A stretch of 64,000 bases of DNA from a bacterium (lineage in GTDB: Bacteria; Armatimonadota; Zipacnadia; Zipacnadales; Zipacnadaceae), in assembly GCA_030603495.1 (NCBI GenBank), contig JAUVXR010000003.1:62001-126000 (forward strand), given 5' to 3'. Positions 57,823 through 61,917 of this stretch are shown here, one piece after another; within the stretch, counting starts at the first letter, position 1, and every line of letters begins with the position of its first letter. The position numbers and the translations under genes were made by a program. The notes under the pieces were generated by a model. It saw nothing but the letters and a program-made list of their open reading frames with translations, made no database searches and was not told the DNA's origin.

Positions 57823-59895
57823 TCAGGCGAAATAGTCGCGGAGGGGCTTGTTACGTCGGGGCTGCCGCAATTTATTGAGGGCCTTCGCTTCAATCTGCCG
57901 GATGCGCTCGCGCGTTACCTCGAAGATATGCCCGACCTCCTCCAGCGTGCGCGGGTAGCCATCTTCCAGGCCGAACCGCAACTTCAGCACCTCGCGCTCG
58001 CGCTCGGTGAGCTGGCCCAGCAGCCTATCGAGCTGCTCGCGCAGAGCCATATTGGACGCCACATCCACCGGCGTCTCATCTTCCTCATCGGGTACGAAGT
58101 CGCCTAGATGGCTGTCGTTTTCTTCACCGACCGGTGCTTCCAGCGAAAGCGGCTTGGGCGCAATTCGCTTAATCTCGGCGACACGCTCCATCGGCATATC
58201 TATCTCGGCGGCTACGTCCTCCAGGGTAGGCTCGCGGCCAAGCTCCTGAAGCAGCTCGCGCGACGCCTTGACCAGGCGATTGATCGTCTCAACCATGTGG
58301 ACAGGCACGCGGATGATCCGGCTTTGATCGGCAATGGCACGGGAGATGGCCTGGCGTATCCACCAGGTAGCATAGGTGCTGAACTTGTAGCCTTTGCGGT
58401 AGTCGAATTTCTCAACCGCCCTCATCAGCCCAACATTGCCCTCTTGAATCAGGTCAAGAAAGCTCATCGCGGAGCGGCCAGTATACTTGCGCGCGATGCT
58501 GACCACCAAGCGCAGGTTCGCTTCGGTTAGCGACTGCACGGCATCTTCGTCTCTGACGCGCAGGCTCGCGCCATCAACACTCCCGGCACTGACTTGTCGG
58601 CTCAAGACGACCTCAACCGGTCTACTCAGTCCAACGTTCTGCTCCCCGTCCACAGGAAAGGCCGCTTGCACCGCCAGCGTGGCTGGATCGGCGGCCGTGG
58701 TGAAATCAATCTTGAATGGCTCCTGTAGCGGATACCCACTCGCCCCCATAATGCCCTTCTTACCCGCTTCCAGCGTCAGGGTGTAGATCATTTGTCTGGT
58801 TAACGGATCGGCGGGGATGAAGCGTACCTCGCGGCGTTCATCGTCGTAGTGGACCTCCCCGGCTACCGGATGGTTCATGGCATCATGCACTCGCACAGTC
58901 CGGGCCCCTACCGAACGCGGGACCAGGCGGCGGTCAAACGTGATAACCACGGGGCGAGCTACGTCGAAATCCGTGGCCCCATCTTCAGGATCAGTCTTCA
59001 CGACGCGCGGTGCCGCCTTGGCACTGGTTGTGCGAAAACTGAACTTATGATTCTTGGCCAGCCGCCGGCCCTCTTCTGCCGTGGCGACGCCTTCGGCCCT
59101 CGCGCGAACCGTCGCCGTGAACTTATTGCGATGCTTGAGCGACTTGGCTGGCCGGAAGCGCGCACGCCACGGCTGCATCTCGTCGAGGCTGACGGTGCCT
59201 GCTACTTCGCGGCCCTTGCCGTCCACTACTGTTACGACACCGGCGCGGACCGAATCGGCCGCCAGCACATCGCTGAACTCGATGACAATGTCGCGATCAA
59301 CTTCAACATCCCGTTTCCCGTGCTCGGGCAGGCTGCCGGTGACAGTTAAAGGCGCACTACCGTTGGCGGTGCGGAACGTCCAGAGGATGTCCCGGGCCAT
59401 CGGCTTAGCCGCGACGTCGCGTATGCCGTGCTCCCCGCCTCGCACGGCCACGGTATACTCGCGATCCGGGTCGCGCGCCTCCTCGGGCTCGAACCGCAGA
59501 CAATTGCGCAAGCGATCGTAGACCACCCGTCCGTTGCCCTTCTGGACGCGACGTGCTATTTCGACCTCCTCGCTGGGGCTGAGCAGAGGGACCTGACCGA
59601 TGCTGCGCAAGTACATCCGCACCGAGTCGTCTACCGGCACAGATTCGACGTCTTTTTCGTCCTCCAGATCGGCCTCGGCTTCCTCGGTGGCAGATTCTCC
59701 GTCGGAGCTGACATTTATGCCCGCCTTGTGCAGAATCCGGTATATATCCTCAATATCGGAGGTATCCAGGAATTCGCACTCCCCGAGCACTTCCTGGATA
59801 TCTTCGTAGGTTAGATAGCCCTGTTCCTGGCCCTTGCCAACAAGCTGCTGAACCTGTTTGAGCTCGCTGATCTCGACTGCCTCGCCCTCGGGCAA
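57823..59895 (-). CDS. rpoD: primary sigma factor RpoD with inserted Ig-like (Big_5) domains
   Basis: 690 residues from a TTG, six bases after dnaG. Region 1.1 is residues 10-62 ([13 protein letters not shown]), then an acidic linker. Region 1.2 is about 88-120 ([19 protein letters not shown]). Regions 2.1-2.4 begin at about 448 ([37 protein letters not shown]), with 3 and 4 following to [16 protein letters not shown]. All housekeeping residues are present. Residues 121-447 are not sigma sequence but Ig-like Big_5/SbsA repeats (listed separately). The insert sits where E. coli sigma70 has its non-conserved region. The frame is uninterrupted and starts and ends cleanly within the sigma core. 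Confidence 0.93.
58555..59535 (-). other. Ig-like (Big_5/SbsA-type) insert within rpoD
   Basis: Codons 121-447. A Big_5 repeat typically opens with 'P-x-DG', 'v-i-F' and closes with 'F-P...L....YT-t', 'G......W-F-T'. Residues 122-176 are the second half only ([23 protein letters not shown]). Residues 183-290 are a full repeat ([20 protein letters not shown] to HKFSFRTT). Residues 295-400 are a second full repeat ([20 protein letters not shown] to FKIDFTT). Residues 405-447 are the first half only ([19 protein letters not shown] to SLRVRD). Composition is basic, unlike secreted Ig domains, which fits a place on RNA polymerase near DNA. Confidence 0.85.
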
Positions 59896-59901
59896 CTACC
59901 T

Positions 59902-61917
59902 TCAACTCCTTTCGTCATTCTGCTCCGCGTTGTTCTGCTGCCCGGATAAGTCCTCCGGACTCTCTACCCGGTTCGTCCCCTGGATAGCTCCTGGACCTTC
60001 GAGAAAATCAAACTGGCCTTTGCCATGGAATCTAGCCGCCAGAGCAACGTACCGCTGATAGTCCGGATGATCGTGTGTGAATTCGTCGGACTTCATCAAT
60101 TCAGCGATGCGCTGTTGTAACTTCTGGAAGTCCTCGACGCTATTCTCCTCAGTGACGAGGGGGCTTTCTGCGGATTGCAGCTCGTATTCCTCGCGTAGGC
60201 CTGTAACCCGCCGGTGCTTGCGCAGCTTTCGAGCACTGGCCTCAAGGAGCTCGTTCGTCAGATCATCAGGTGGCTCCGCAAGTAAGAGTTCCACGGCCCG
60301 ACGGTAAGTACCTTCCTGCGCTGAGAGCTCATCGGGCACGCGCTGCGGCTCGTACTCACCATTCACCTGAAGCTGCGCCCCAATCGCTCGGGCAATAGCC
60401 TGGTGCTCAGGCGTCAGGAAATCATCCGGACACAATACCGCGAATACCCTTTCGGCAAAGTCTCTGCTCTCTAAAGCCGCGCACAACAACTCTCGTTCCA
60501 GCCTCTCTAATATCGCGCCGCGGTATTCGACGTCCTGAACGATAGTCTCGGTGACAAAGCTGCGGTCCCGCCGGCCACTGCCCGCCGTCTTAGCCCGCCG
60601 GCGCTGGCCTTTGCTGGTGCGCCGCTGCATCTCCATGCGCAGGGCTGCCTGCATGCCTCCTACCCGCTCCGGCTGCCCCTGAGCCCAGCGGTCGGCTGCC
60701 CGCACCACGAACTCCTCGCGGCGGGTCCGATCTGGTATGTGCCGCAGTACATCTACCGCCTCCCGTGCTGCTCGCGCCAGTCCCTCGGAGCCACCGTCTC
60801 GATGACCGCCAAAGACCATCTCCAGGCGATACTCAACCAGGTCCACGGCCTGCTGGGCAAGCTGCTGAAACTGCTCGACGCCGTGTGCACGGATGGACTG
60901 ATCCGGATCAATGCCCTGGGGCAAGAGCATTACCCGGGCCTCGAGTGTGCTGCCCTCGAACAAGTCAATGTTGCGCAGCGCCGCCGCCATCCCCGCCGCA
61001 TCCGCGTCGAAGCAGAGGATAACTCGCTCAACGTACCGCCGCAGTAGCAACAGATGGTCAGCGGTCATCGCCGTGCCCAATGTTGCCACTGCGTTCTTGA
61101 GACCAGCTTGGTGCAGGGCCAAGACGTCCGTGTACCCTTCAACCACTATCGCAGACTTCGCCGCGACCAGCGCCTGCCGACCGTGGGCCAGCGCATACAG
61201 ATTGCGACTCTTGCTAAACAGCGGCGTGTCCGGCGAATTGAGGTACTTCGCCGATTCAGCCGGATCCATCGCCCGTCCCCCAAAGCCGATCACCGCCCCC
61301 GCCGCATCGCTAATCGGAAACATTATCCGGTTGCGAAAGACGTCGTAATCGCTGCCCCGTTCGCTGCGTTTGACCAGTCCGGCTTCTCGCATCAGTTGAG
61401 CTGCAAGCCCCTTGCTGGACAAGAACTTCAGCAGCTCGTCCCACGCCTCCACAGCGAAACCCAAGCGGAATCCTGTGATCGTTTCATCAGAGAAGCCACG
61501 TTTATACAAGTAATCGAGTGCGGCTTTGCCGCCGGTGCTGCGCAGATTGTCCTCAAAGTGGCACGTCGCCGACTCCACGGCGCGGCGCAGCAGCTTGCTG
61601 CGCTCAACCCGTGCCTGCTCCCCCGGTTCAATCCGCCAAGTCAAGCCACAGCGTTCGGCGAGCCGCTCACCAGCTTCCGAGAAGCTAATCCCTTCGATCT
61701 GTTGCAGGAACGAGAACAAGTCTCCGCCCGCCCCACAGCCGAAGCAGTGCCACAGGCCCGCCGCTGGATCAACGGACAACGATGGAGTCTTCTCCTGATG
61801 GAAAGGACACAGTGCCTTGAACCGCCGCCCGGCTCGCCTCACAGGAATGTACTGGGAGATAAGCTCGACGATGTCAATCCGTCGCTTGATTTCTTCTTTG
61901 GTGTCTTCGATAGGCAT
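59902..61917 (-). CDS. dnaG: DNA primase DnaG
   Basis: 671 residues. The zinc finger is C37-PF-H40...C58-FG-C61. The catalytic core has YLNSPDTPLFSKS, the TOPRIM motif VVEGYTDVLALHQAG and ILCFDADAAG. The C-terminal third (about 440-671) holds the helicase-binding domain and a Gln/Glu-rich tail. It primes lagging-strand synthesis with DnaB. It is coupled to rpoD (six bases apart), the conserved core of the macromolecular synthesis operon. rpsU is absent. Confidence 0.96.
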   Translation of the reverse strand: MPIEDTKEEIKRRIDIVELISQYIPVRRAGRRFKALCPFHQEKTPSLSVDPAAGLWHCFGCGAGGDLFSFLQQIEGISFSEAGERLAERCGLTWRIEPGEQARVERSKLLRRAVESATCHFEDNLRSTGGKAALDYLYKRGFSDETITGFRLGFAVEAWDELLKFLSSKGLAAQLMREAGLVKRSERGSDYDVFRNRIMFPISDAAGAVIGFGGRAMDPAESAKYLNSPDTPLFSKSRNLYALAHGRQALVAAKSAIVVEGYTDVLALHQAGLKNAVATLGTAMTADHLLLLRRYVERVILCFDADAAGMAAALRNIDLFEGSTLEARVMLLPQGIDPDQSIRAHGVEQFQQLAQQAVDLVEYRLEMVFGGHRDGGSEGLARAAREAVDVLRHIPDRTRREEFVVRAADRWAQGQPERVGGMQAALRMEMQRRTSKGQRRRAKTAGSGRRDRSFVTETIVQDVEYRGAILERLERELLCAALESRDFAERVFAVLCPDDFLTPEHQAIARAIGAQLQVNGEYEPQRVPDELSAQEGTYRRAVELLLAEPPDDLTNELLEASARKLRKHRRVTGLREEYELQSAESPLVTEENSVEDFQKLQQRIAELMKSDEFTHDHPDYQRYVALAARFHGKGQFDFLEGPGAIQGTNRVESPEDLSGQQNNAEQNDERS

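Follow-up and report, generated by a model that had tools for sequence, protein, structure and literature searches.

An immunoglobulin-like array flanked by complementary half-units in the housekeeping sigma factor of a class of Armatimonadota

The rpoD locus and the layout of its insert

The window, by which we mean the whole stretch of 64,000 nucleotides that was analyzed, carries an rpoD gene next to dnaG (Table 1), an adjacency that is consistent with a dnaG-rpoD operon. Pfam recovers Sigma70 regions 1.1, 1.2, 2, 3, and 4 in order from its 690-residue reading frame, together with four stretches of the Ig-type family Big_5. The C-terminal RpoD model of NCBIfam (RpoD_Cterm, TIGR02393) scores 366.1 bits against a cut-off of 354, and the full-length RpoD equivalog models fall below their cut-offs, as is expected because a foreign insert is present. 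Sigma region 2 is matched 11 times in the window genome (93.5 percent complete), and the other ten matches lie in frames of 208-274 amino acids, leaving this rpoD as the sole sigma frame of housekeeping size. Region order, the RpoD C-terminal model, housekeeping size, and the dnaG neighbor all mark the protein as a group 1 sigma factor.

Table 1. Features of the dnaG-rpoD locus and of the sigma insert, in window coordinates.
Feature	Position	Strand	Basis
dnaG (DNA primase), directly upstream of rpoD	59902..61917	-	NCBIfam TIGR01391, 438 bits
rpoD, housekeeping (group 1) sigma factor, 690 aa, TTG start	57823..59895	-	Pfam regions, NCBIfam RpoD_Cterm
Sigma region 1.1, aa 13-82	59650..59859	-	Pfam PF03979
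Sigma region 1.2, aa 90-121	59533..59628	-	Pfam PF00140
Ig insert, aa 121-448, half + full + full + half, 328 residues	58552..59535	-	Pfam pieces, unit profile, whole-protein scan
Half A, aa 121-178, second half of Big_5 unit, strands 122-127, 132-137, 146-151, 170-176	59362..59535	-	Unit positions 52-109; DSSP on model
Full Ig domain B, aa 181-293	59017..59355	-	Big_5 53.7 bits; model matches CopC 2c9r
Full Ig domain C, aa 294-403	58687..59016	-	Big_5 62.1 bits; model matches YcnJ 9c14
Half D, aa 406-448, first half of Big_5 unit, strands 409-413, 418-421, 427-431, 445-448	58552..58680	-	Unit positions 2-47; DSSP on model
Sigma region 2, aa 457-526	58318..58527	-	Pfam PF04542
Sigma region 3, aa 536-611	58063..58290	-	Pfam PF04539
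Sigma region 4, aa 625-678	57862..58023	-	Pfam PF04545

The insert lies between regions 1.2 and 2.1, in the turn that joins their two helices, and both regions are intact in the insert-bearing sigma. The 1.2 and 2.1 motifs are 370 residues apart in the window protein and 42 apart in insert-free sigma factors, a difference of 328 residues. Over the junction, insert-free sigma factors of other phyla, L092 for example, read ...KRMERGDEEAKRRLIEANLRLV, and the window sigma reads ...RRVQKGN, followed by the insert and then by the 2.1-side sequence. An earlier, sequence-only reading had described positions 58555-59535 on the minus strand, which encode residues 447-121 of the 690-residue frame, as an Ig array that begins with the second half of a repeat, continues through two full repeats, and ends with the first half of another. 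That layout is borne out by two kinds of comparison, a Pfam scan by pieces and a profile of the repeat unit, with complementary halves in all 41 homologues that could be aligned.

In the Pfam scan, the two middle pieces match Big_5 (PF13205) over positions 4-105 and 3-105 of 105, the first piece over 63-105 only, and the last over 4-42 only. Taken singly, the end pieces stay below the Big_5 cut-off of 23.6 bits, at 17.6 bits (E 0.007) and 17.3 bits (E 0.008), and when they are joined last-then-first they match positions 5-105 at 33.4 bits. The gathering score is exceeded along the whole model by B and C, and by the split domain only in this joined form. All other families found in the insert region are of Ig type (Big_10, bMG1, and weakly CopC), and when the insert was compared with PDB sequences, L,D-transpeptidases of the LdtMt2/LppS type were the sole matches, with a best E of 8e-06.

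The unit profile, 112 positions long, was built from the two full repeats of the 41 homologues with the halves excluded, and in the window protein it finds half A at 47.5 bits and half D at 24.6 bits. Across all 41 homologues, half A begins at profile positions 50-53 and runs to 100-110 (24.5-64.2 bits), and half D extends from 1-8 to 47-49 (11.9-35.0 bits, with three homologues at just 11.9-13.4 bits). Of 2,050 shuffled decoys, 1,702 gave any match at all, and the highest reached 8.3 bits. A scan of whole proteins with the same profile gives exactly four matches in every homologue; because these four matches and the complementary halves recur in 41 of 41, half A + B + C + half D is the architecture of the class. 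Four independent full domains are ruled out, since in neither comparison do the halves ever span beyond about their half-unit. The piece skipped between the halves comes to 4 profile positions, and in models of the full repeats 8 residues separate the two hairpin strands (224 to 233 and 337 to 346), so the initial estimate of about nine missing residues was a fair one.

Distribution and conservation of the insert

We searched 291 Armatimonadota genomes for the insert at a threshold of 1e-12. The class to which the window belongs comprises 46 of them (G000-G040 and G286-G290) and is probably Candidatus Zipacnadia. Matches were found in 49 genomes, 42 of the 46 in the class and 7 of the 245 outside it. 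The four class genomes without a match are also without a complete rpoD: G003 holds an rpoD piece only, starting at query residue 417 within half D, and no housekeeping sigma was found at 1e-60 in G007, G020, and G034. Outside the class, the four of the seven matches that were read (L180-L183) are Big_5-repeat proteins without a sigma frame.

No Ig units occur in the sigma frames of 41 non-class Armatimonadota genomes. Eight of these 41 frames have about 225-233 extra residues at the site, and the remainder have short turns, many of them judged by eye. The eight longer fillings, in families f30-f32 (L168-L175, from G229, G231, G232, G233, and G236-G239), are charged. Among the 80 loci listed in a scan with a sigma-core pattern, 1 has the insert (L058), 72 have 42-195 residues over the span, and 7 others are unmeasured. 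The junction segment of L058 looks like that of L029, and the two may come from the same genome.

Big_5 matches outside rpoD are frequent in genomes of the class, which lends some initial plausibility to an assembly or binning chimera between a secreted Ig protein and rpoD. The 42 matching class genomes, however, fall under ten family labels, and 41 homologues could be aligned with the insert in frame at the same junction, so that an artifact of this kind is vanishingly improbable. In one bin, G002, three insert-bearing rpoD copies or pieces lie on contigs C11, C35, and C262, one of them full and two ending no more than 7 bases from the contig start; these are perhaps mixed strains or paralogues.

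Across the 41 aligned homologues the insert is 324-341 amino acids long. Its mean p-distance is 0.63, against 0.16 for the sigma core, and the insert and core distances are correlated (Mantel r 0.73, reached in 0 of 1,000 permutations). Of the 13 listed pairs, 11 have a dS below 2, and in these dN/dS is 0.07-0.31 for the insert and 0.004-0.07 for the core. The array is thus one whose sequence changes fast but whose length and number of units are held. It is an old and inherited feature, and throughout the class its number of units stays at three.

Predicted structure and pairing of the half-units

An AlphaFold2 model was computed from the 41 sequences and read through its predicted per-residue confidence (pLDDT) and its DSSP strands. 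Within the insert, the means of 10-residue blocks range from 86 to 96, in a full-length model whose pTM is 0.56 and whose sigma core, including region 2, is poorly modelled. Both halves reach a pLDDT of about 92 and together contain the same eight strands as B (185-289) and C (298-400). The sigma helices continue straight into the insert at both junctions, helix 107-118 leading to strand 122-127 and strand 445-448 leading to helix 450-472, which upholds the earlier proposal that the insert leaves and re-enters the core at one hairpin. That reading further conjectured that such an insertion would leave the packing of 1.2 on 2.1 undisturbed and that it may have originated by recombination within a tandem Ig array. 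DSSP calls a strand only where it is bridged, and by Ig topology the usual partners of strand 445-448 presumably lie in the other half.

B and C are each modelled as an ordinary, contiguous Ig sandwich of the CopC-like kind. The model of B (182-290) aligns with CopC 2c9r over 95 residues (Z 14.4, rmsd 1.6), and that of C (295-400) with the CopC-like domain of YcnJ 9c14, also over 95 residues (Z 13.2, rmsd 1.9). The split domain is non-contiguous and cannot be aligned as a unit, and a Foldseek search with the full model places sigma chains at the top of the list.

Since the total length equals three units in any phase, the insert might in principle consist of three contiguous, circularly permuted domains with no split domain at all. 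This shifted phase is difficult to reconcile with the close match of B and C to CopC-type structures as contiguous domains (rmsd 1.6-1.9), and it further predicts that the second half of C should lose confidence once half D is taken away. When residues 86-408 were folded without half D, the pLDDT of half A fell from 92.2 to 84.3, while B went from 92.5 to 93.7, the first half of C from 94.3 to 95.8, and its second half from 94.2 to 94.9 (all means taken from 10-residue blocks), with no drop in either domain. A loss in half A and none in C agrees with the conventional phase and goes against the shifted one, which we regard as highly improbable. The drop in half A is modest, and at a pLDDT of 84 it stays folded without half D.

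The hydrophobicity pattern of the halves follows that of the full domains in register, with correlations of 0.73 and 0.83, comparable to the 0.75 between B and C, and a maximum of 0.38 in other registers. The coupling map of the split domain resembles those of B and C (r 0.107, reached in 0 of 2,000 permutations), but comparisons that include mispaired halves reach values as high or higher (0.046-0.146 versus 0.069-0.094 for properly paired ones), so the resemblance carries no weight as evidence of pairing. This registration of core hydrophobicity bears on a further possibility, that the halves do not pair and are eroded remnants or flexible linkers beside two real Ig domains. Such a view would fit the failure of each half to pass the Pfam cut-off by itself, as well as the position of half D, at 2.23 bits per column, as the least conserved part of the insert, if only slightly so. 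Half A, on the other hand, is the best conserved part, at 2.65 bits per column. Its dN/dS stays under 1 in all 13 listed pairs, as does that of half D in 12 of them, with no estimate for the remaining pair. With boundaries that are fixed in 41 of 41 homologues and confident strands predicted in both halves as well, erosion or flexibility of the halves is very unlikely.

Pairing of the halves in trans, which would give a domain-swapped sigma dimer on or off the polymerase, draws on the same sequence evidence as pairing in cis, and our analyses do not separate the two. It is nonetheless quite unlikely: each half is held between a neighboring sigma helix on one side and the linked domains B and C on the other, an arrangement in which closure in cis should be cheaper, and the model of a single chain already gives a pLDDT of about 92 in the halves. 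Half D and half A thus very probably pair in cis to form a third Ig domain, as the complementary sequences and the models both suggest. The proposal that the halves can complete a third domain is supported by that complementarity, by the confidence of about 92, by the full set of strands, and by the drop in half A when half D is removed. As for the structure prediction that was to reveal it, all the expected strands are present in both halves and the junctions sit at the hairpin; the contact between the halves we infer strongly from these features rather than see.

If the halves do close on each other, the insert would comprise three CopC-like/Big_5 Ig domains in 328 residues, set into the 1.2/2.1 turn of the housekeeping sigma of the class. 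B and C are its ordinary contiguous members, on the strength of both sequence and models, and the third would be split, with its first four strands in the C-terminal 43 residues of the insert and the other four in the N-terminal 58. Since a domain divided in this way places the ends of the insert on neighboring strands of one hairpin, a long array could be attached to a tight helix-turn-helix whose helices stay together, and closure of the split domain would force the three domains into a closed ring. Hairpin permutation, if true, would offer a general way of putting an elongated array into a tight turn, and closure of the ring, if true, would explain why the number of units is constant across the class.

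The NCR site, its possible function, and known systems

Residue 451 of the window sigma aligns to residue 374 of E. coli sigma70, whose NCR comprises residues 128-372 (PMC7822876). The insert, located between regions 1.2 and 2.1 as an NCR is, therefore occupies the NCR site. The NCR sequence family, whose Pfam model for the proteobacterial form is Sigma70_ner, is absent among the 12 Pfam families listed for the window protein at E up to 1. We consider it probable that the insert is a lineage-specific replacement of the NCR by a closed three-Ig module whose split domain pairs in cis. A more specific version, in which the three Ig domains of this NCR form a triangular ring that is closed by the split domain and acts on the clamp as a rigid lever or as a dock for regulators, seems to us evenly balanced between true and false.

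In the closed complex, the NCR of sigma70 is described as turning onto the beta' clamp toe, a contact that matters for promoter escape (PMC7822876), and NCRs are reported to touch DNA at -16/-17 and to be contacted by RbpA and GrgA (PMC7403470). By analogy of position, the Ig insert may touch the clamp toe and/or dock regulators, tuning the formation of the open complex and promoter escape in the way of the E. coli NCR, a suggestion that we make tentatively. The contact of the E. coli NCR with DNA at -16/-17 (PMC7403470) and a net charge of +5 on the window insert would also suit direct contact with DNA, the insert gripping the upstream part of the promoter. Over the 41 homologues, however, the net charge runs from -29 to +8 and is negative in 31, a variation that speaks against a plain DNA-binding surface and points to no particular partner, so that a grip on DNA is unlikely.

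The stretch of beta' from the clamp-toe motif to the PEWM motif is 186-257 residues long in the 16 Armatimonadota rpoC loci that could be measured (L194-L196, L199, L200, L205-L211, L213-L215, and L217), and by eye it is helix-like and acidic. We also considered a class-specific partner in this part of beta' and rejected it: the stretch is 208-252 residues long in 8 class loci versus 186-257 in 8 non-class loci, and because it is long with and without the Ig insert, no co-adaptation is evident.

Few bacterial proteins are as conserved and as essential as the primary sigma factor, and the Ig fold is best known from exported proteins. Here, a whole class has put a three-Ig module into its primary sigma, an unrelated, permuted Ig array in place of the NCR. 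A literature search of open-licence papers found no report of Ig domains in a sigma factor, and the main text of the paper on the class (PMC10290634) contains neither sigma nor RpoD, nor Ig-like or immunoglobulin.

The nearest counterpart by position is the NCR of E. coli sigma70, which sits at the same site of a group 1 sigma and is of similar size (245 versus 328 residues) but belongs to a different sequence family from the Big_5 Ig insert. The fillings of about 225-233 residues in the f30-f32 Armatimonadota are likewise lineage-specific and at the same site, but they lack Ig units and look helix-like by eye. About 144-153 extra sigma residues, not Ig-like by eye, occupy this site in L137 (Omnitrophota) and L124 (Phascolarctobacterium). 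Elsewhere in the protein, the 695-residue sigma frame of L177 (G278) has at its N terminus a very long stretch rich in Lys and Glu. Several lineages seem to have filled the NCR site independently, which would make it a recurrent insertion point with unrelated fillings, Ig domains in this class and others in sister lineages and proteobacteria. That the fillings are unrelated in sequence makes the purpose of the site testable by comparison.

By family, the insert belongs with tandem arrays of Big_5 (PF13205)/CopC-like domains, B and C matching CopC structures with Z of 13-14. It differs from them in lying within a sigma factor, and so presumably in the cytoplasm, in having a hairpin-cut domain common to both ends, and in its fixed number of units. 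Three Big_5 tandem-repeat proteins of family f25 (L180, L181, and L183), apparently exported as judged by eye, are among the best non-class matches to the insert, and proteins of this type are a possible source of it.

RNA polymerase is well known to carry inserts that are specific to a lineage. A parallel in construction is Si3 of the cyanobacterial enzyme, described as a lineage-specific insert of repeated small beta domains in the transcription machinery, in which SBHM-2 to -5 are assembled from distant stretches of the chain (PMC10802570). Si3 differs in its location in the beta' trigger loop, in its SBHM fold, and in its eight repeats, where the insert described here is in sigma and made of Ig domains. 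A split domain of this kind would amount to a simple rule by which long arrays enter compact proteins while the ends of the host stay together.
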